Assembly (NCBI GenBank): GCA_016744895.1
Contig: JADGDK010000012.1
Location: 1 to 41,795, forward strand
Direction: 5' to 3'
DNA length: 41,795 nucleotides
DNA from: Campylobacterales bacterium
Lineage (GTDB): Bacteria > Campylobacterota > Campylobacteria > Campylobacterales > QNZT01
This document shows, in pieces, positions 13,200 through 27,289 of the stretch (its first letter is position 1; every line of letters starts with the position of its first letter). Both the position numbers and the translations under genes were made by a program. The notes below the pieces were generated by a model. That model saw nothing but the letters and a program-made list of their open reading frames with translations. It had not been told where the DNA came from and did no database searches.

Positions 13200-15098
13200 G
13201 TGAAGACACATTATAAAATTGAAACCCTTTTTGATATGTTCATACACTCTTATGAACACTATAAAACAAACCCAGCATTTATCTATAGAGCATTTGACCA
13301 TGAGTTCACTGTCAGTTATGAAAAGTTTTTTGATGATGTATTGATACTTTCAAAAGCATTTAGCAGTAAAAAAATTGCTAAGGGCTCTAAAGTCATGTTG
13401 CTTTCAGATAACCGTTATGGATGGATAGTAACAGATATGGCACTTGTGTCATTAGGTGCAATTTCTGTGCCAAGAGGAAGTGATACACCCACCCAAGAGT
13501 TAGAGTATATCATGACACACTCGGCATGTGAATTTTTGATCGTAGAAAATCAAGAGCTTTTGATCAAACATGAACATCTCATAAAACAACTTAATTTAAA
13601 AGCTATTTTTGTCATCGAAGCAGATAAATTACATACTCCTTTTGACCACGTCTTTTCTTATAATGACATTCTCAAAGATCGTACCATTTCAGATGATGAA
13701 GTAGATCAATTTATCAAACACAAAGAGTCTCTAACGGCAGATGATATCTTTACCATTATTTATACTTCAGGTACAACAGGTACACCAAAAGGGGTACTTC
13801 TTTCACATCAAAACATCATGTATAATGTCAGTACAATTCCTGGATTGATTCGTTTAGTCCATGAAGATAAATGGCTTTCGATATTACCTACATGGCATAT
13901 TCTTGAAAGAGCTGCTGAGTATGTAGCTTTGTCCAAAGGGTGCTGTACGGTGTATTCGGGAATTAAAACATTTTCAGATGATCTACAAAGATATAAACCA
14001 ACGATTGTCGCTACAGTCCCAAGACTTTGGGAATCTATGTATGTGAAAATCAATGCGGCAATTAAAGCACAAGGCAATACAAAAAATAAAATTTTCCAAG
14101 CTTTGGTGATTGTCTCGGAAAAATACAACTATAACCTTCGTGTTTTAAAAGATCATTTACCTGTATTTAAAAAACAAAATGCACTGAAATCTTTATATCT
14201 AAAAAGTATTGCTTTAGGAAACCTAATTTGGCTGACACCGCTTAATTTTATCGCCAAAAGAAAGTTACAAGTGGTACAAGAGAAGTTTGGTGGAAGACTC
14301 CGACTTGCAGTTAGTGCTGGAGGGACTTTGCCAAAATATCTAGATGAGTGGATTGATGCCCTTGGTATTACGATTATTAACTCATATGGTATGACAGAGT
14401 GTGCACCATTAATTCGAGGCCGTGCGCTTAGCTGTGATACATTTGGGACATTAGGAACGTCTGTGGAAGGTTCAGAGATGAAAATTGTGGACGAGCAGGG
14501 TAATAATGTCGCAGTTGGAGAAGTAGGTGAAATTGTTGTAAAAGGCCCCCAAGTCACACCTGGTTACTACCTCAATGATGAAGAAAATCTCAAAGCTTTT
14601 GGCGTAGATGGATTCTTTAAAACTGGTGACCTTGGTAAGCTTACTATTAATGATGAATTAGTGATAACAGGTCGATCAAAAGAGATTATTGTTTTAGCAA
14701 ATGGTGAAAATATTGACCCAAGCAAGATCGAATCAACGATCACCATGCTTCCGTTTATCAAAGATACAATTTTAGTAGGGCAAGATAAAAAAGGGTTAGG
14801 TGCATTGATCGTTCCTGATATTGACCAACTTAAAGAGTTTATCCATACGAAGCTTGATTTGGCGGTACATTCATTAGAACAGATCAAAGAGGATAAACCC
14901 CTTACCAATAACATTAAAAGAGAGATCAATAAACTACTCAATGCAAAAGAAGGTTTTAGACCTTTTGAAAAACTGCAAAATATTCACTTCTTAGATAAGG
15001 ATTTTACACCTGGAGAAGAGTTAACAAATACATTGAAAAAAAAGCGTCATATTATTGAAAAAAAATATAAAGAGATTATTGATAAGATTTTAAAATAG
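13200..15098 (+). CDS. long-chain acyl-CoA synthetase / AMP-binding enzyme
   Basis: TIIYTSGTTGTPKGVLLSHQN, YGMTECAPLI, KTGDLGKL, GRSKEIIVLANGENIDPSKIE. Confidence 0.92.
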   Translation: MKTHYKIETLFDMFIHSYEHYKTNPAFIYRAFDHEFTVSYEKFFDDVLILSKAFSSKKIAKGSKVMLLSDNRYGWIVTDMALVSLGAISVPRGSDTPTQELEYIMTHSACEFLIVENQELLIKHEHLIKQLNLKAIFVIEADKLHTPFDHVFSYNDILKDRTISDDEVDQFIKHKESLTADDIFTIIYTSGTTGTPKGVLLSHQNIMYNVSTIPGLIRLVHEDKWLSILPTWHILERAAEYVALSKGCCTVYSGIKTFSDDLQRYKPTIVATVPRLWESMYVKINAAIKAQGNTKNKIFQALVIVSEKYNYNLRVLKDHLPVFKKQNALKSLYLKSIALGNLIWLTPLNFIAKRKLQVVQEKFGGRLRLAVSAGGTLPKYLDEWIDALGITIINSYGMTECAPLIRGRALSCDTFGTLGTSVEGSEMKIVDEQGNNVAVGEVGEIVVKGPQVTPGYYLNDEENLKAFGVDGFFKTGDLGKLTINDELVITGRSKEIIVLANGENIDPSKIESTITMLPFIKDTILVGQDKKGLGALIVPDIDQLKEFIHTKLDLAVHSLEQIKEDKPLTNNIKREINKLLNAKEGFRPFEKLQNIHFLDKDFTPGEELTNTLKKKRHIIEKKYKEIIDKILK

Positions 15099-15653: not shown

Positions 15654-15854
15654 ATGCGAATCAAACTTTGCAAAAAGTATCCTAAAAAGAAAAAATTTGC
15701 AAAGAAGCTTCTACTAGCACATCCCGATGCAAAGATTGAAATCAAATCTTGCATCGGGATGTGCAAACACTGTAAATCTAAACCTACAGCAAATATAGAC
15801 GGAAAAAAACTCAAAAAAAAGCGTATTAAAAAATTTATCGAGTCTCTCTCCTAA
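15654..15854 (+). CDS. small Cys-rich thioredoxin-like [2Fe-2S]/DUF1450-like protein
   Basis: 66 aa; LAHPDAKIEIKSCIGMCKHCKSKPTANIDGK. Confidence 0.6.
   Translation: MRIKLCKKYPKKKKFAKKLLLAHPDAKIEIKSCIGMCKHCKSKPTANIDGKKLKKKRIKKFIESLS
15717..15764. repeat. near-perfect long inverted repeat inside coding sequence
   Basis: GCACATCCCGATGCAA (15717-15732) and TTGCATCGGGATGTGC (15749-15764), 16-bp perfect arms extended by GATT/AATC after a 1-nt bulge, 7-nt loop. Confidence 0.97.
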
Positions 15855-15861
15855 TTTAAAG

Positions 15862-16689
15862 TTAAATACTATTTTCTAATAAATGCTGATTCTGCATGGC
15901 TTTATAAAGTTTATCATACCCTTTAAGCTCTTCTTCTCCCACTTCTACCCATCTGTTTAATCCCTCCATAATCATCATTTTTTTGATGATAGGATCTTTA
16001 GGATCTTGGGACATGATCATTTCTGTAAATGCTTTGGATAACTTTTCGTCACACTCTGGCATCACTGTAAAGTTACAGTGACAGTAACCACAACTGGTAT
16101 AAAAAGCTTCTACTTCACCCTCTGGAAAAAGTCCCTCTTCAATCATCCGAATCCAGGTGGTACTTCCGATAGAACCAGCATCGATTTCACCATTTAATAT
16201 GGCGTCTAAGATATCAAACTCACTTTTTCCAGTATCTCCGTGTTTACCAATATCAGAGTTAAAACGTACCAGTGTTAAATCTTTTTCAGGATCAATATCT
16301 TCTTCTTGTAGATAAGCATAAGGTAAAATTGCTGCTTGAGCTGAATCTTTACTCCCTAATCCAAATTTTTTTGTTTTAAGGTCAGCAACGCTCTTGATGC
16401 CAGATGATGATTTAGTGATGAAAATAGACCTAAAATTTATATCTGTATCACGCATCACAAGTGCCTTGGCTTTGTTATTTGTTGCATGATGCATCCGTAT
16501 CCAAGCGACATTGGTATTCCAAGCAACATCAATCATCCCTTTTTGTAAGGCTTCTACCTGTGCTTCATAATTTGAAAAAAGTACATAGTCAAGTTTCAAA
16601 CCATTGTCATTATAATAGTCTCTGATAATATTCCAAATTGGTACTACTTTTGCATCATAGGCTACTGCCCCTAACATAATTGTTTTCAT
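15862..16689 (-). CDS. PhnD/SsuA-like periplasmic-binding-fold protein without signal peptide
   Basis: MKTIMLGAVAYDAKVVPIWNIIRDYYNDNGLKLDYVLFSNYEAQVEALQKGMIDVAWNTNVAW; begins directly at first beta strand; FYTSCGYCHCNFTVMP. Confidence 0.78.
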   Translation of the reverse strand: MKTIMLGAVAYDAKVVPIWNIIRDYYNDNGLKLDYVLFSNYEAQVEALQKGMIDVAWNTNVAWIRMHHATNNKAKALVMRDTDINFRSIFITKSSSGIKSVADLKTKKFGLGSKDSAQAAILPYAYLQEEDIDPEKDLTLVRFNSDIGKHGDTGKSEFDILDAILNGEIDAGSIGSTTWIRMIEEGLFPEGEVEAFYTSCGYCHCNFTVMPECDEKLSKAFTEMIMSQDPKDPIIKKMMIMEGLNRWVEVGEEELKGYDKLYKAMQNQHLLENSI

Positions 16690-16698
16690 TTTTTCTCC

Positions 16699-17826
16699 TT
16701 AAGGTATTGGTTGGTTTGTGAGTGCTTTACCCAGCCAAATCGATAAAACATCTGTACTAGGTGCCATCACTTGTGCGGCTAAGGCATCTCTTAACAGTCT
16801 CTCAAGTGGCAATCTTTTTGCATAAGCTGCGCCACCACCTATTTTCATCGCTAAAGTTGCTACTTCAACTGCGACATCTGAAGCATTGACTCTTGCTGCA
16901 ATAATCTGCGTTAAAGCATCTGCATCCATGTTTGAGCCACTAAGTGACGCTGCAGTGGTAAAGTGTTTTGCTCCTTGTGCTTTTTTATAGATTTGTGCTA
17001 AGTGGTTTTGAACCGTTGGAATTTCACTCAAACTTTTTCCATCACTATATTTTCGATTCATGCTATAAGCTACAGCGATATCATTTATATGTAGCGCAAC
17101 TCCTGTATAGACTGCCGCTAATCCTGTGATAAAAAATGGTGCTACCACTTCAAAAACTTGTGTTACGCCACTTCCTTCTGCTCCGACTCTATCATTTTCA
17201 TCTAAGGTGACATTTTCTAGATACATTGGCATAGACGCATTTCCACGCATGCCTAATCCATCCCATTGGCTTGCTTGAAAAGTCACACCCTTACTACCAT
17301 CAGGTACGAGCCAGTTATCTAAGCCATCTTTTTTTAAAGTAGAAGAGAGCACCATATAGTAGTCCACAAAACCAGCTGCAGTTACAAAACTCTTTTTGCC
17401 ATTTAAAATATAATTTTCATTCTTTTTTGAGAGTGCAATTTCAGGTTGGTAAAAATGTGTCCCAGTACCTGTTTCACTAAAAGCAAGTGCTAAAGAGATC
17501 TCTCCCTTGGCAATTTTTGGTAGTAATGCCTCTTTCATCTTATCACTACCATGCAGTACAACACACATCGTAGCAACATTGTGCATCATATAACACAGTG
17601 CAGTTGTTGCACAACTTTGTGCCAATGCTTGTATCACAGTAGCATGTGCATGAAGGTTTAATCCTTGCCCTCCATAAGCTTCAGGTACGATGAGTCCCAT
17701 ATAGCCTTCTTTTTTTAAAGCCGTAAAACTCTCTAGAGGATAAGTTCCCTCTTTATCTGCTTGGTCACTGTGTGGCGCTACATAGGTTTGTGCAAATTGC
17801 ATCGTTTTTTCATTAAGTTCTTTCAT
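16699..17826 (-). CDS. acyl-CoA dehydrogenase-superfamily protein (non-canonical active site)
   Basis: GLIVPEAYGGQGLNLHA, LAFSETGTGTHF, YILNGKKSFVTAA, LGMRGNASM, C-terminal LRDALAAQVMAPSTDVLSIWLGKAL. Confidence 0.85.
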   Translation of the reverse strand: MKELNEKTMQFAQTYVAPHSDQADKEGTYPLESFTALKKEGYMGLIVPEAYGGQGLNLHAHATVIQALAQSCATTALCYMMHNVATMCVVLHGSDKMKEALLPKIAKGEISLALAFSETGTGTHFYQPEIALSKKNENYILNGKKSFVTAAGFVDYYMVLSSTLKKDGLDNWLVPDGSKGVTFQASQWDGLGMRGNASMPMYLENVTLDENDRVGAEGSGVTQVFEVVAPFFITGLAAVYTGVALHINDIAVAYSMNRKYSDGKSLSEIPTVQNHLAQIYKKAQGAKHFTTAASLSGSNMDADALTQIIAARVNASDVAVEVATLAMKIGGGAAYAKRLPLERLLRDALAAQVMAPSTDVLSIWLGKALTNQPIP

Positions 17827-17835
17827 GGTTTCTCC

Positions 17836-19095
17836 TTACATAAAATTTGGTGTGTGGGATTTTGAGATATCTATGGCTAAGTCTTCATCCATACCGATAT
17901 CCATCAATCGTTTAATTCTATTTCGATTCATCGTTTTTTTGAGATCTTCAACCGCTTCATATCCTCTTTTATAGTGCTCAATCGACGTACCACCTCCTGC
18001 TAAAATAGACAAAGACTCTAGTAGCATGGTTGACTCTCCATTGATCTCATCCATAAACTCTTTTCTTTTAAATGCAGTCTCTTTCAGTGAATTAATCCGT
18101 TTAGGATTTTGTGCTAGCGCTGATGAGACATGTGCCATACCATAGGCAACATGACGGGACTCATCACGGCGTACATAGTTTAAAATTCTCTTAGTACTCG
18201 CATCAGGCATATAGTTTTCTAAAAACTTCAACAGATCGATAAATGTTCCCTCACCCATAACATGCAGTAAAAATGAGGACTTGATATAATCTTTTTCTGC
18301 AAAAAGAGAATACAAAGAGCGTTGTGTGACAGTTGAAGAGTATTGTATACCGCCACCATTGGCATTGGCTCTTTTGGTAAATGCTTCGATATGACGTGCT
18401 TCATCATTCATTAATGATGATAAAAACAGTGGTATCTCCATGTAGTAAGGGTTCATCTGTGAGATAAACTTCCCTGGAATGTAAAGGGCTGAAAACTCAT
18501 TTTCAATAAGATAAGTCATGATTTGACAAATAGCACGCTCAAACTCTGGATCGTATTCTGGGATTTCATTCCACAAGATATCATCTGTTGCGTCCCACTG
18601 TCCATGTTTGGCTTCTTCATAAAGTCGTGATACTGGTTCTGCCCAAATTTCTTCTTTATGGTTGATCGCAAAGTTATAATCAACGCTTCCCTCTTCAATG
18701 ATACAATCTCTTGGCATCAAACCATGATGATCAGGTGCTTTTGTCAAGATAGAATCTTTGCCATGAAAATTCCAATCTCCACTTTTTGGATTGTTGGTAT
18801 CGATACCTTTCATCGTAAACCCAAAATTGGCTGTTTTGGGAAATGCACTTTTGTGATTGCGTACTTTGTAAGAGAGTTGGTTTTTTAGATGGATTTTTTC
18901 AAGAAGCTTATGCCCTTTTAAGTTACACCAACTTGCCAACTCAAACTCTATTTTTTCGTTGGTAGATACAATTTCGATGATTTCACCATCACCTGCAAGT
19001 AAAAAAGCATTTTCTAGTTTTAAAAAGAGTGCTTTCCCTACGGCTAAATTGCCAACAAAAATGGTACCGGAATGTTTATAATTTGATTTGTTCAT
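17836..19095 (-). CDS. fusion of TusA-like domain with diiron ferritin-like/RNR-like domain
   Basis: N-term KALFLKLENAFLLAGDGEIIEIVSTNEKIEFELASWCNLKGHKLLEKI (TusA-like); C-term ...LIENEFSALYIPGK...LSSLMNDEARHIEAF...HVMGEGTFIDLLKFLE...YVRRDESRHVAYG (paired ExxH diiron motifs). Confidence 0.7.
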   Translation of the reverse strand: MNKSNYKHSGTIFVGNLAVGKALFLKLENAFLLAGDGEIIEIVSTNEKIEFELASWCNLKGHKLLEKIHLKNQLSYKVRNHKSAFPKTANFGFTMKGIDTNNPKSGDWNFHGKDSILTKAPDHHGLMPRDCIIEEGSVDYNFAINHKEEIWAEPVSRLYEEAKHGQWDATDDILWNEIPEYDPEFERAICQIMTYLIENEFSALYIPGKFISQMNPYYMEIPLFLSSLMNDEARHIEAFTKRANANGGGIQYSSTVTQRSLYSLFAEKDYIKSSFLLHVMGEGTFIDLLKFLENYMPDASTKRILNYVRRDESRHVAYGMAHVSSALAQNPKRINSLKETAFKRKEFMDEINGESTMLLESLSILAGGGTSIEHYKRGYEAVEDLKKTMNRNRIKRLMDIGMDEDLAIDISKSHTPNFM

Positions 19096-19244: not shown

Positions 19245-19270
19245 AAAAAGGAGTATAAAAACTCCTTTTT
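19245..19270. terminator. bidirectional terminator
   Basis: AAAAAGGAGT-ATAAAA-ACTCCTTTTT. Confidence 0.85.
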
Positions 19271-20123: not shown

Positions 20124-20894
20124 TTAAAATTGAGGTACACAAAATCGGTACCCATCTTTATTCTCTTTTACCTGTACACGGACACCATAGAGTGTCTTGA
20201 TATTTTCTGCGGTAAGTGTGTTTTTTACCTCTCCATATGCGACTGTAGCACCTTCTTTGATCATCATTACTTTATTGGAGACATAGAGTGCATGGTCAGG
20301 GTAGTGCGTGGTTTTTAAAAATGTATATCCATTTTCAGAAAATTCTTTTATAAATTTTAGAAGTTTGATTTGATTACCATAATCTAATCCTGTAACTGGT
20401 TCATCCATCAAAATAATTTTTGACTCTTGCGCCAAGGCTCTTGCTATAAATGTTAATTGCCTTTCACCTCCACTAATCTCAGAGTAGAAATAATTTCTTA
20501 AATGTAAAATTCCTACTTTTTCTAGCATCTGAACCGCTATATCTCTATCTTTTTGTCCATAATTAGAAAAGAGTCCGATATGTGGTAGTCTTCCCATCAA
20601 AACTACATCAAATACAGTATAGGAGAAGGGTATTTGATGGGTTTGCGGCACATAAGAGATCAGCTGTGCGAGTTCTCGTTGGCTATAACTTTTTAGAGTT
20701 TTTCCTAAGAGGTTGACACTTTCTGATGTTTTATAAAAGCCCAAAAGTACTTTTAAAAGTGTACTTTTACCACTACCGTTTGGACCTAAAAGTGAAAGTA
20801 CATCCCCTTGTTCTATACGCAAATCTATGTTGTGAAGGACTGCTTTGTTTCCATATGAAAAAGAGATATTTGTAGCTTCAATGACAGGTACCAT
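20124..20894 (-). CDS. FecE/BtuD-type ABC transporter ATPase
   Basis: LLGPNGSGKSTLLKVLLG (Walker A), EISGGERQLTFIARALAQ signature, IILMDEP Walker B. Confidence 0.93.
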   Translation of the reverse strand: MVPVIEATNISFSYGNKAVLHNIDLRIEQGDVLSLLGPNGSGKSTLLKVLLGFYKTSESVNLLGKTLKSYSQRELAQLISYVPQTHQIPFSYTVFDVVLMGRLPHIGLFSNYGQKDRDIAVQMLEKVGILHLRNYFYSEISGGERQLTFIARALAQESKIILMDEPVTGLDYGNQIKLLKFIKEFSENGYTFLKTTHYPDHALYVSNKVMMIKEGATVAYGEVKNTLTAENIKTLYGVRVQVKENKDGYRFCVPQF

Positions 20895-21910
20895 TAAAAT
20901 CCTTTTCTTGCGTTTCTAAGCACAATTACAAAGATAGGAATTCCTACAAGAGAGGTTAAAATTCCGATAGGTACTTCAAAGGTAAAAAGGGTTCGTGAGA
21001 GATCATCGGTAGCAAGTAAAAAAAGTGCACCTATCAAAGCACTTGCAGGTATCATGATACGGTTATCGGCACCAAGAAAAAGTCGTGCTATGTGAGGAAC
21101 AATAAGTCCAACCCAACCAATCACACCGGCTAAAACAACAGTAAGTGCACTGATAAAAGTAGCAGAAAATATCATGATAAGTTTGAGCATCTTGACATTG
21201 ACACCTAGTGATTTTGCCTCTTCATCTCCTAAACTCAAGGCATTGAGATATTTAGAAAACAGAAGCAGTATTGCGATACCAACAGCCATGGGAATTAACA
21301 ACATATAAATAGTATCTTTGCTACTAAAAGAGAGACTCCCCATAAGCCAATAGACAATCGCAGGCAAAGTGTCGTAAGGGTCAGCTGTGTATTTCAAGAT
21401 CGAGAGTAGGGCACTAAAGAGTGAACTACTAATCACCCCTCCTAAAATCAGTATAATCATGCTTCGATTATTGATATAAAGATAGGATATCGAGAGTGCT
21501 ACAATAACAGCTAAAAAACCAAAGAAAAAAGTACTCAGCTGTATGCCAAACCATGAAAATTTTAATACCATTCCAAGTGCCGCGCCAAATGAAGCCCCAG
21601 CAAGTACTCCTAAAAGACCTGGAGAGACTAAAGGGTTGACAAACATTGCTTGATAGGTACTTCCAGCAACTGCTAAAGAAGCTCCTATCATGATAGCCGC
21701 TAAGATCCGTGGTAGACGTATCTCTAAGATGACCGAATTTAAAAGTGCTAATTTATCTTTATCAATGACTACATCATCAAATATGAAGCTCTGCATAAAC
21801 AGCACATACTCATCTAAAGTGATAGGATATTTCCCCACAAACATAGAAAGTTGGATCAGTAAAATTAAAAGTATCAGCAGTACGGTGAGTATCACTCGCT
21901 CTTTATTCAT
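20894..21910 (-). CDS. FecCD/BtuC-family ABC transporter permease
   Basis: LRLPRILAAIMIGASLAVAGSTYQAMFVNPLVSPGLLGVLAGASFGAALG; GVIGWVGLIVPHIARLF. Confidence 0.93.
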   Translation of the reverse strand: MNKERVILTVLLILLILLIQLSMFVGKYPITLDEYVLFMQSFIFDDVVIDKDKLALLNSVILEIRLPRILAAIMIGASLAVAGSTYQAMFVNPLVSPGLLGVLAGASFGAALGMVLKFSWFGIQLSTFFFGFLAVIVALSISYLYINNRSMIILILGGVISSSLFSALLSILKYTADPYDTLPAIVYWLMGSLSFSSKDTIYMLLIPMAVGIAILLLFSKYLNALSLGDEEAKSLGVNVKMLKLIMIFSATFISALTVVLAGVIGWVGLIVPHIARLFLGADNRIMIPASALIGALFLLATDDLSRTLFTFEVPIGILTSLVGIPIFVIVLRNARKGF

Positions 21911-22896
21911 TGATGTAAAATTTCACGAATCTCTTGTGCGCTGAGTTCATATTGTAAAAAGAGTTTATAAAAATCTCTCATTTGTGCTTTGATATCGATA
22001 GAAGTCTCTTTGGGATGTAAAACAGTCAATAACCATTTGAGCCCTAAAAAACGCATAAAAGAGATTGGTTTGTCTATCCAATTAAAAGGTCCACTTGGTA
22101 TAAGGTAGACTTTTTTTTGTTTGACCGCACGAAGTAGGTTCCATTGACTATCTTTTAAAAGTTTTTTATAAAATTTTTTATTGTGTACCAAGATAATATC
22201 TGGATTATAGATGAGTAGTTGCTCAAAGCTAATGACTTGTGAATTGTAGTGTCCTTTGACATGACATTTATGGATATTTTCACCACCAGCCAAATCAATA
22301 ATCTCCATTCTAAATGAGGTATGGCACTCAGTTTTAAGTCCATTATTACCACCTGCATAGTAGACAGTAGGTGTTGAAAGGTTTTTATCTCGAATGCTTT
22401 TTGCTGTGTCGAGTGATTGCATACCCCACTCTTTAAGTGCATGTGCACGCTCTTTTGAACCCACTTCATTGGCTAAGATTTCAAAAGATTCTGCCAGCTC
22501 TTGCAGTGTCTCATCTTTAAGGAAAAGTTGGGGAATTTTGACACTTCCAAAACTTTTTGTAACTTTTTCTTTTGCATATGTTCTCATCCATTCTGACATA
22601 AGTATTAAATCAGGATGGATTGAGAGTACCATCTCAGCATTAGCAGTTTTACCTTGTCCTAGAAATCCACCAATGAGAGGTAAATTAACTGTTTTGGGAT
22701 CTAAGTATTTTTTCTCTTCATCCCAAAACTTAAATATAAGTCCTGCTATCAAAGAGCGATCTAGTGCATAGAGTTGATACAAAAGTGTAGGATTTGAAGC
22801 ATATACTTTTTGAATTTTTCTATCATCTGCACCATGTACAGATGATAGAAATAAAATAGAGATAATAATGAGACGTTTAAGTATCATCTCAAACAC
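21907..22896 (-). CDS. FecB/BtuF-type periplasmic substrate-binding protein
   Basis: Signal peptide; VYASNPTLLYQLYALD..., LPLIGGFLGQGKTANAEMVLSIHPDLILMS, YNPDIILVHN. Confidence 0.88.
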   Translation of the reverse strand: MFEMILKRLIIISILFLSSVHGADDRKIQKVYASNPTLLYQLYALDRSLIAGLIFKFWDEEKKYLDPKTVNLPLIGGFLGQGKTANAEMVLSIHPDLILMSEWMRTYAKEKVTKSFGSVKIPQLFLKDETLQELAESFEILANEVGSKERAHALKEWGMQSLDTAKSIRDKNLSTPTVYYAGGNNGLKTECHTSFRMEIIDLAGGENIHKCHVKGHYNSQVISFEQLLIYNPDIILVHNKKFYKKLLKDSQWNLLRAVKQKKVYLIPSGPFNWIDKPISFMRFLGLKWLLTVLHPKETSIDIKAQMRDFYKLFLQYELSAQEIREILHQ

Positions 22897-22898
22897 TC

Positions 22899-24899
22899 CT
22901 AAAAACTGTAACGCACACTAGTAAACCATGTACGACCAGGTTGTGGATATCCCTCATCATACTCATAGTCTTCATCAGTGATATTACGTGCACCTAGCTC
23001 AATATTAAGATCTTTCATCACTTTATACCCCACTTTTACATTTGCAACTGTGAAGCTATCACTCTCTAATATCGCACCTCTTTTATGTACTCTAGAGATA
23101 CGTGAAGATTCATATCTTGCTGATGCTATAAGTTCCCATTGTGGTGCAAAGTCCCAATTGGCATAAGTATATATTTTATGTTTTGGAGAAGCTGCGATCT
23201 CAACTTCTACAGCACTTTTGTTTTTACGTCTTAAGTAACTGTATGATCCGCCAAGTTCTAAAGTATCACTCATCATAGCTGCCACGGCAAGTTCAACACC
23301 ACGATTTTGAACTTCTGCAATATTAACCTTTTGCTCTATCAAAGAGCCATCACTATCTTCCACTTCTATGTACTCCATAGCATCATCGATATCAGATTGG
23401 AATATCGCTGTATCTAAACGTACTTTATCATTTAACAGTGTCGTGTATCCAATCTCATAATGTGTCGCTTTTTCAGCTTTTAGATCTGGATTAGGCAGTG
23501 TATATCCTAATTTACTAGAGTATCTATCTTTGATATTAGCAAATCGTGTTTTTCTTGAGACTGTAGCACGTACCTGATCACCATTTTTGTAAGAGTGAAA
23601 AAGACCTATTTGTGGATTTAGTGCATGTGTAGTTTCAGTTGGCAAACTTGTGAATCCTGTATCTTCATCATATTCTGTTGCTTCAACGGATTCTCTTTGG
23701 TCATAGCTAATTCCAGCAACCACACTTATTTGGTCACTAAACTCATAGGTATCTTCTATCCCAAGAGAGATAGTACGATCTTCATAGGTACTTTGTGGTT
23801 CACCTAAGTCATTTTCTTCGTGTACATCATCTTTAAATGTTAATGCCATCCGAAGCATGTTCTTTTCTACTATAGGATATCCAACTTCTACCGTTGCCCC
23901 ATAAGTATAGTCTTCATAGATACTTTGAAATCTAGTAGAAGAAAAAGTTTCATTTTTATAAGCATAAAGTGAGTTATCAAATGTGTCATAATAGACACGT
24001 GATTTTACATACCCTTTTCCCACTGCGGTATTTGAGAAAAAATAGATACTCTGTTTGTCATAATTTGGCCATGTCCAGTATCTTGGATATTCGTCCTCAT
24101 CAGTACCTGCATATAGGGGTGTCTCTTTTTCTGCACGTTGGTCTGAAAAACCGATGACATATTCATCTGTTTCATTTGGAGTAAATCCCATTTTAAAGCT
24201 AATCTTTTGATCTTTTTGCTCTGCATTTTCACGGGTTTTATCTGGTTGTATTTCATTAAATGCAAAATTATCAGAGATTGAAAATGCGTCACGATCAAAA
24301 TATGATCCACCCATTTGCATATACCAATTTCCTTGATTTGTTCCGATGTTAAATGAAGTCTCATAACCAGAAGTATCACTAGATTCACCTGTGATAAATT
24401 CAGCTGCAAGTGTCCCTTCCCAAGATTTTACGGGTCGTTTACTGACGATATTGATCGCACCACCAAGTGTGTTTGCTCCATAAAGTACAGAACTAAAACC
24501 TTTAGCAACTCTAAGCTCACTTATATCCGCAGTCGTAAAACGTGCTAAATCTACATTTCCATCATAAGGAATATATACGGGTATCCCATCTATAAATAGA
24601 GGCACTTGTTTTGAATCAAAACCTCTTACCATGACGTTAAACTCATTTCGATTACCTGTGTGATCAAGAGTTACACCTGGTACTAATTGTGCAGCTTCAA
24701 CCATATTTTTAAGATTGTGTTTGACTACGATCTCATTGTCAACTACCTCTTCCATCGCGGTGTTTACAGGTTGTTGTTTGGCTACAATTTCTACCCGTCC
24801 AAGTGTAAACACATCACTATCTGCTGCTTGAACTACTAAAGATGTTAGCAACAGTGCTGCATACCTACTTACTTTTGTCATAAAATGCCCTTTTTGCAA
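22899..24899 (-). CDS. TonB-dependent outer-membrane receptor
   Basis: Plug domain (VELVPGVTLDHTGNRNEFNVMVRGFDSKQVPLFIDGIPVYIPYDG...GANTLGGAINIVSKRP) and C-terminal GRTWFTSVRYSF beta strand. Confidence 0.94.
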   Translation of the reverse strand: MQKGHFMTKVSRYAALLLTSLVVQAADSDVFTLGRVEIVAKQQPVNTAMEEVVDNEIVVKHNLKNMVEAAQLVPGVTLDHTGNRNEFNVMVRGFDSKQVPLFIDGIPVYIPYDGNVDLARFTTADISELRVAKGFSSVLYGANTLGGAINIVSKRPVKSWEGTLAAEFITGESSDTSGYETSFNIGTNQGNWYMQMGGSYFDRDAFSISDNFAFNEIQPDKTRENAEQKDQKISFKMGFTPNETDEYVIGFSDQRAEKETPLYAGTDEDEYPRYWTWPNYDKQSIYFFSNTAVGKGYVKSRVYYDTFDNSLYAYKNETFSSTRFQSIYEDYTYGATVEVGYPIVEKNMLRMALTFKDDVHEENDLGEPQSTYEDRTISLGIEDTYEFSDQISVVAGISYDQRESVEATEYDEDTGFTSLPTETTHALNPQIGLFHSYKNGDQVRATVSRKTRFANIKDRYSSKLGYTLPNPDLKAEKATHYEIGYTTLLNDKVRLDTAIFQSDIDDAMEYIEVEDSDGSLIEQKVNIAEVQNRGVELAVAAMMSDTLELGGSYSYLRRKNKSAVEVEIAASPKHKIYTYANWDFAPQWELIASARYESSRISRVHKRGAILESDSFTVANVKVGYKVMKDLNIELGARNITDEDYEYDEGYPQPGRTWFTSVRYSF

Positions 24900-26377: not shown

Positions 26378-27289
26378 TTAAAATAGTTCTGTACTTAGAT
26401 ATCTTTCTCCCGTATCACATAGGATTGTTACAATAGTTTTGCCTGGATTTTCTTGGGCTATTTTTTGTGCTGCGTGTACATTTGCACCTGCGGAGATACC
26501 AACAAGAAGTCCTTCATTGTGTGCTAGATATTTGGACATTTTGAATGCATCTTCATTAGAAACTTTAATGATGTCATCATAGATATCAGTATTTAGGATT
26601 TTTGGAATAAAACCTGCCCCAATACCTTGGATTTTATGTGGTCCACCATTTTCACCACTAAGCACTGCTGAGTCAGTTGGCTCTACTGCTATCACTTTGA
26701 GATTTGGAATCATCTGCTTGAGTATTTCACTTGTACCTGTTATTGTCCCACCAGTTCCAACAGCTGCTATAAAAAAGTCTATATTTCCTTCAGTATCATT
26801 GTAGATTTCAAGTGCCGTTGTTTTTCTGTGAATCTCAGGGTTTGCAGGATTTTCAAATTGCTGTAATATGATAGAGTCTTCCATTGTCTTATTTAACGCT
26901 TCAGCCTTTTGTATTGCACCATTCATTCCTTGTTCTTTAGGGGTGAGTTCTAAAATTGCGCCAAAGGCAGAGAGTACTTTTCTTCGTTCAATACTCATAG
27001 ATTCAGGCATAGTAAGAATAAGACGAATACCAAGAGATGCACAAATACTTGCAAGTGCAATTCCTGTATTACCACTAGTAGGCTCAATCACAGTTGTATT
27101 TGGACCAATTTTATTGTTTTGAATTGCATTTTGGATCATGTTGTATCCAATACGATCTTTTACTGAACTTGTTGGGTTCATAAATTCACATTTCCCGATA
27201 ATTTTTGCACCACTTTTTTGTGAGATAGAGTTTAATCTCACTAGTGGTGTATTGCCAATAAGTTCAGTAATATTTTCTGCAATTTTCAT
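26378..27289 (-). CDS. cysK: cysteine synthase (O-acetylserine sulfhydrylase)
   Basis: ELIGNTPLVRLN, EFMNPTSSVKDRIGYNMI (PLP Lys), EPTSGNTGIALA, GTGGTITG. Confidence 0.95.
   Translation of the reverse strand: MKIAENITELIGNTPLVRLNSISQKSGAKIIGKCEFMNPTSSVKDRIGYNMIQNAIQNNKIGPNTTVIEPTSGNTGIALASICASLGIRLILTMPESMSIERRKVLSAFGAILELTPKEQGMNGAIQKAEALNKTMEDSIILQQFENPANPEIHRKTTALEIYNDTEGNIDFFIAAVGTGGTITGTSEILKQMIPNLKVIAVEPTDSAVLSGENGGPHKIQGIGAGFIPKILNTDIYDDIIKVSNEDAFKMSKYLAHNEGLLVGISAGANVHAAQKIAQENPGKTIVTILCDTGERYLSTELF

Follow-up and report, generated by a model that had tools for sequence, protein, structure and literature searches.

Acyl-CoA dehydrogenases (ACADs) and acryloyl-CoA reductase, the R2-like ligand-binding oxidases (R2lox) and AurF N-oxygenases, and the phosphite/phosphonate-binding proteins PhnD, PtxB and HtxB are the described proteins closest to the products of the three genes reported here, and the closest described gene set is Rv1678-Rv1681 of Mycobacterium tuberculosis (NF049986, NF049984, NF049985 and NF049973). 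In the literature searched, which took in few subscription papers, we found neither an account of the function of Rv1679/Rv1680 or of the present genes nor a characterised pathway that matches them. The locus lies on a contig from a Campylobacterales bacterium (JADGDK010000012.1; 41,795 nt), and this whole stretch, analysed at its full length, is called the window. Its three genes, called the triad, share with the mycobacterial set the adjacency and order of the ACAD and PhnD genes, but have a TusA-diiron gene in place of the DoxX-like membrane protein.

17836-19095, minus strand: gene 1, 419 aa, a fusion of a TusA-like and an R2lox/AurF-like diiron domain
16699-17826, minus strand: gene 2, 375 aa, an ACAD-superfamily flavoprotein, kin of Rv1679/FadE16
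15862-16689, minus strand: gene 3, 275 aa, a cytosolic PhnD-fold protein, kin of Rv1680
19245-19270, minus strand: a hairpin with a T run, terminator-like, between the triad and the upstream methyltransferase gene

Organization of the locus

The intergenic gaps within the triad measure 9 nt and 9 nt. The first-pass annotation, made from the sequence alone, had the strand and the tight spacing right, and its figure of 10 nt for one of the gaps is corrected here. The Shine-Dalgarno sequences of genes 2 and 3 are strong and overlap the preceding stop codon (TAAGGAGAAACC-ATG and TAAGGAGAAAAA-ATG). A strong terminator had also been placed between the triad and the neighbouring uptake operon. The hairpin (19270-19245) does exist, but terminator-like sites are no more numerous than in shuffled sequence (2 found against 2.3 expected); a strong terminator at this position is plausible.

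Misbinning of the contig in its MAG was ruled out, because its tRNA-synthetase gene is 78-86% identical to those of same-genus genomes. Among the 22 genomes of the window's family that were searched, no other has the triad, which is accessory within this family. As for the surroundings, an AMP-binding gene (acyl-CoA ligase type) is located near the triad at 13200-15098, a ferritin gene adjoins the triad, and a 66-aa ORF with CxxxCxxC and no Pfam match lies between the latter two on the plus strand (15654-15854). A PLP-dependent enzyme of cysteine-synthase fold (PALP) is encoded at 26378-27289, fairly near the TonB/ABC uptake operon (20124-24899).

Conservation of the triad in Campylobacterota

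The phylum survey covered 397 Campylobacterota genomes, and plasmid records gave a view of other phyla. It turned out that the PhnD-like protein occurs in 51 of the 397 genomes (NCBIfam model search) and the diiron protein in 46 (profile search), each of which is one of the 51 PhnD carriers (hypergeometric 5.6e-55, the kinship of the genomes being ignored). At every locus examined that has all three genes (36 of 36, the window counted in), they sit side by side on a single strand in an unchanged order. A gene-neighbourhood check for co-occurrence had been set beforehand as the refuting test, and the families co-occur decisively; with these counts, and with no characterised pathway found for it, the description of the triad as an uncharacterised three-gene redox operon is borne out. 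The three proteins have diverged in parallel: the pairwise correlations between their distance matrices are 0.81-0.93 (at most 0.34 when permuted), a sign of shared inheritance that alone is no evidence of interaction.

The genes flanking the triad vary between genera, the uptake operon of the window included, and since these flanks are not conserved, the triad is a self-contained module. The uptake operon, which had been thought possibly related to the triad, is probably an incidental neighbour, because relatives do not conserve it near the triad. Decay also hits the set jointly: the PhnD-like and diiron genes of genome G262 are both reduced to fragments, and in G276 (L071:2030-5172) an alternative ACAD-PhnD-MetE set, described below, has stop codons in several genes together, as if it had been lost as a unit. 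There is thus a strong case that the three genes make up one conserved module.

A seeming diiron gene without partners in a Helicobacteraceae MAG (L003) proved to be an ORF-calling artefact, and the ACAD and PhnD genes directly follow it. Scans of viral contigs gave no relatives. Several acyl-CoA dehydrogenase genes were seen in contigs (127-379 kb) with a phage label (CAKLQH02/CAKLQF02, Acinetobacter phage MD-2021a), apparently bacterial DNA that contaminates the phage collection.

Features of the three proteins

18856-19074, minus strand: TusA-like domain of gene 1, residues 8-80 (Pfam TusA, AF2 model, Foldseek)
17863-18648, minus strand: diiron ferritin-like domain of gene 1, about residues 150-411 (37-sequence alignment, HMM matches)
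17839-17856, minus strand: C-terminal HTPNFM motif of gene 1, nearly invariant (P416 replaced in 2 of 37 sequences)
16759-16767, minus strand: MAP motif of gene 2 (M354-A355-P356), invariant, where acyl-CoA dehydrogenases have the catalytic Glu of YEG(T)
16075-16080, minus strand: H204-C205 of gene 3, invariant, at a cleft site held by Asp/Tyr in phosphite/phosphonate-binding proteins

The domain assignments made at first pass, namely an N-terminal TusA-like and a C-terminal diiron ferritin-like domain, an ACAD-superfamily protein and a PhnD fold without a signal peptide, all hold, with the correction that the ACAD-like protein is missing its catalytic base.

In gene 1, Pfam TusA matches are obtained for 6 of 16 family members (best 6.8e-7), and the AF2 model of residues 8-80, which is of moderate confidence (pLDDT about 56-79 here), has the betaAlphaBetaAlphaBetaBeta topology of TusA. 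The top Foldseek match of this domain is E. coli TusA (3lvj_C; probability 1.0, TM 0.78 by target length, E 0.013). The AF2 model of the diiron protein, built with one relative in the alignment (pLDDT 39), is usable for the TusA-like domain alone. At the position of the catalytic CPxP Cys of TusA, the alignment of the gene 1 family has no Cys. In the diiron domain the ligand pattern E, ExxH, E, ExxH (four carboxylates and two histidines) is complete and consists of E200, E232, H235, E282, E312 and H315, of which E232 is kept in 36 of 37 sequences and the others are invariant. The HMM matches of this domain are weak and point to R2-like ligand-binding oxidases, DUF455 and AurF (best among family members: NF006200 with 6e-12 and AurF with 6.9e-7). 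It shares with R2lox and the AurF N-oxygenases the ferritin-like diiron domain with full ligands; however, gene 1 scores far under the cut-offs (42.7 bits against 194 for the R2lox family, so that it falls outside R2lox proper), and it has the added TusA-like domain and the HTPNFM C-terminus.

Gene 2 has an ACAD Pfam match (1.5e-24) and belongs to the superfamily of acyl-CoA dehydrogenases and acryloyl-CoA reductase over its whole length. In contrast to these enzymes, every member of the gene 2 family has a MAPS-type motif instead of YEGT, with an invariant Ala where the catalytic Glu aligns. ACADs without the usual Glu can employ another base; no IVD-type alternative Glu was seen in gene 2, its position being judged by eye. 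ETF-alpha is found in 2 of 50 carriers, which are the window's own genome and G352, against 10 of 14 control genomes. Besides, most carriers have a single copy of the ACAD N-domain per genome, i.e. mostly no other ACAD. Because the catalytic Glu is gone and ETF is missing in 48 of 50 carriers, the gene 2 product is not an ordinary acyl-CoA dehydrogenase.

Gene 3 matches Pfam Phosphonate-bd (PF12974, 2.3e-30) and aligns over its full length with phosphite/phosphonate-binding proteins such as PhnD, PtxB and HtxB (5e-25 to 7s6g). It has the PBP fold homology of a PhnD-type binding protein but neither the export signal nor the ABC permease/ATPase: in all relatives the fold begins right at the N-terminus, with no signal peptide ahead of it, and no phn-type transporter gene is found in the triad or as a conserved neighbour. 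The cleft region, which includes D115-S116, H150-G-D152, E157 and H204-C205, is also altered. The Ser/Thr motif for phosphonate has changed from the oxyanion Ser-Thr-Ser to Asp-Ser-Ala, and Asp/Tyr has been replaced by His/Cys; Asp, His, Glu and Cys residues are invariant in the family. D115-S116 and H204-C205 probably fall where the relatives bind their oxyanion ligand, a placement made partly by reference to E. coli PhnD. C205, within the motif GYCHCNF, is the sole invariant Cys. AF2 prediction of the PhnD-like protein alone gave an unusable model (pLDDT 35).

Alternative partners and mycobacterial relatives

Five PhnD carriers are without the diiron gene, and in them a MetE-like protein and an OsmC-like protein are encoded directly after PhnD. 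Among the genomes tested, the MetE-like protein is found in 5 of 5 diiron-lacking carriers, 0 of 20 diiron carriers and 0 of 11 non-carriers, and it has the zinc ligands of thiol alkyltransferases, recognisable as HVC and DCG in its sequence. A Paracoccus relative of this protein has its own N-terminal TusA-like domain and lies beside TusA, DsrE and cysteine desulfurase genes. On pFER4 of Paracoccus ferrooxidans (L082:4881-10627), the TusA-MetE gene is clustered with genes of TusA, DsrE, SelA and TrxB, the cysteine desulfurase is on the other strand, and two proteins of 168 and 522 aa have no Pfam match; the cluster may represent a related sulfur/selenium pathway.

The ACAD and PhnD-like proteins do not form orphan families but are distant kin of the NCBIfam Rv1679 and Rv1680 families. 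The family matches extend over the full length (6e-81 and 1e-92), at scores below curated membership (272.5 bits against a cut-off of 600 for the ACAD and 310.5 against 400 for the PhnD-like protein), and the PhnD-like protein is 42-44% identical to the Mycolicibacterium and Rhodococcus copies. On actinobacterial plasmids of these two genera, the ACAD-PhnD pair comes after an Rv1678-type membrane protein (above the NCBIfam cut-off), and in Mycolicibacterium it comes before an Rv1681-type radical-SAM enzyme. The Miltoncostaea pair has other radical-SAM genes as its neighbours. For instance, a Miltoncostaea oceani plasmid (L036:1-10844) carries selD, DoxX, AhpD-like and Rv1681-like radical-SAM genes together with the ACAD and PhnD-like genes, as well as an arsenosugar-type glycosyltransferase (TIGR04282), DUF2515 and a SPASM radical-SAM gene. 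The search for the Rv1681 radical-SAM enzyme gave no match in 37 carriers, and the positive-control genomes gave no match either.

Proposed function and alternative explanations

We tentatively propose, with a confidence just short of an even chance, that the triad is a cytosolic, O2-dependent oxidative module acting on a small compound of sulfur or possibly selenium. The PhnD-fold protein, of phosphite/phosphonate-binding descent, would be off transporter duty and would bind a small substrate or itself convert it. The ACAD-like flavoprotein would most likely be a flavin oxygenase/oxidase or pass electrons directly to a partner, because the proton-abstracting Glu is lost and the ETF partner absent. 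The diiron protein would carry out an O2-dependent oxidation, while the Cys-less TusA-like domain could be where a sulfur-carrying protein or substrate docks. A small organosulfur compound, or possibly an organoselenium one, would probably be the substrate, and the module would either produce it or break it open so that its sulfur can be used. This order of steps is what we infer, as are the use of O2 by the flavoprotein and the diiron protein, the sulfur substrate and the docking role. The third enzyme is swapped by lineage, for a MetE-like zinc thiol-alkyltransferase and OsmC in Helicobacter-type loci and for a DoxX-like membrane protein, with or without the radical-SAM enzyme, in Actinobacteria; the alternative partners could also stand for different reactions instead of isofunctional swaps.

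A sulfur substrate is proposed mainly because the enzyme set is recurrently associated with sulfur-carrier parts. The earlier suggestion of a small sulfur- or nitrogen-containing molecule gains support on its sulfur side, from the TusA fold and the swappable MetE-like/OsmC partner. Against the proposal, the TusA-like domain is without the sulfur-carrying Cys, and the window's own genome is among the two carriers with ETF.

A selenium variant, in which the module would make or cleave a carbon-selenium compound with the help of selenophosphate from SelD, is unlikely but draws on several observations. SelD is present in 50 of 50 carriers tested and in 51 of 51 by phylum scan, compared with 233 of 346 non-carriers, and by genus in 16 of 16 carrier genera compared with 46 of 68 (P about 7e-4). 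In G357 (L064:2446-3495) and G153 (L067, same position), a selD precedes the diiron gene by about 130 nt, and G357 has a further copy of selD elsewhere; selD is also near the Miltoncostaea ACAD-PhnD locus, and SelA adjoins the Paracoccus TusA-MetE gene. However, SelD is common in the phylum and clustered by family, so that the association is confounded and a weak pointer, and among Campylobacterota selD is directly by the triad in one genus only. In Campylobacter jejuni the TusA-like YedF/FdhU already has a link to selenium-dependent formate dehydrogenase (PMC5322559).

It is quite improbable that the triad is an operon for metal or oxidative-stress defence or sensing, with the diiron protein as O2/peroxide scavenger and the PhnD-like protein as metal-binding sensor. 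Such a role would suit the diiron site, the invariant Asp/His/Glu/Cys residues of the PhnD-like protein, the ferritin gene adjoining the triad in the window and the often microaerophilic life of Campylobacterota. Yet it gives the ACAD nothing to do, the ferritin gene is not a conserved neighbour of the triad, and Helicobacter-type loci carry the MetE-like enzyme and no diiron gene.

The first-pass annotation had considered the PhnD-like protein ligand-binding or suicide-enzyme-like. Still less probable is that it is a THI5-type suicide enzyme, making a thiamin-like pyrimidine or other heterocycle with the help of the redox enzymes. Gene 3 resembles THI5/NMT1 HMP-P synthase as a cytosolic PBP-fold protein of the common superfamily (Pfam NMT1/THI5, 1.2e-8), and its Cys-containing GYCHCNF in the cleft region recalls the THI5 motif CCCFC, which binds iron (PMC10512395). 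But the gene 3 motif is not CCCFC and has a single invariant Cys (C205), the sequence is nearer to phosphite-binding proteins, and ThiC is kept in every carrier tested (35 of 35), which leaves no shortfall in thiamin synthesis to make up, and a thiamin bypass was rejected.

That these are ordinary genes of acyl-CoA/fatty-acid oxidation, with a binding protein beside them by chance, is scarcely credible. Gene 2 does belong to the dehydrogenase superfamily and the AMP-binding gene is nearby, but canonical beta-oxidation is contradicted by the Glu replaced in all members, the ETF absence and the usually sole ACAD per genome, and the triad is strictly conserved while the ligase gene near it is not.

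Implications

Extending the favoured reading of an O2-dependent oxidative module, the triad may belong to a widespread new oxidative pathway for a small sulfur/selenium metabolite in Campylobacterota and in Actinobacteria including Mycobacterium tuberculosis, which we consider possible, though somewhat below an even chance. Its fixed core would be the PBP-fold enzyme and the base-less ACAD, and its third enzyme TusA-diiron, MetE-like/OsmC, or radical-SAM with DoxX-like. Being kept whole or lost jointly across the phylum, the triad must do one definable job, for which a PBP-fold binding protein and an acyl-CoA dehydrogenase have both apparently been recruited to new chemistry. The swapping among diiron, zinc-thiol and radical-SAM partners offers natural clues to the reaction, and the triad is a tractable three-protein system toward the job of the unannotated mycobacterial Rv1678-1681.
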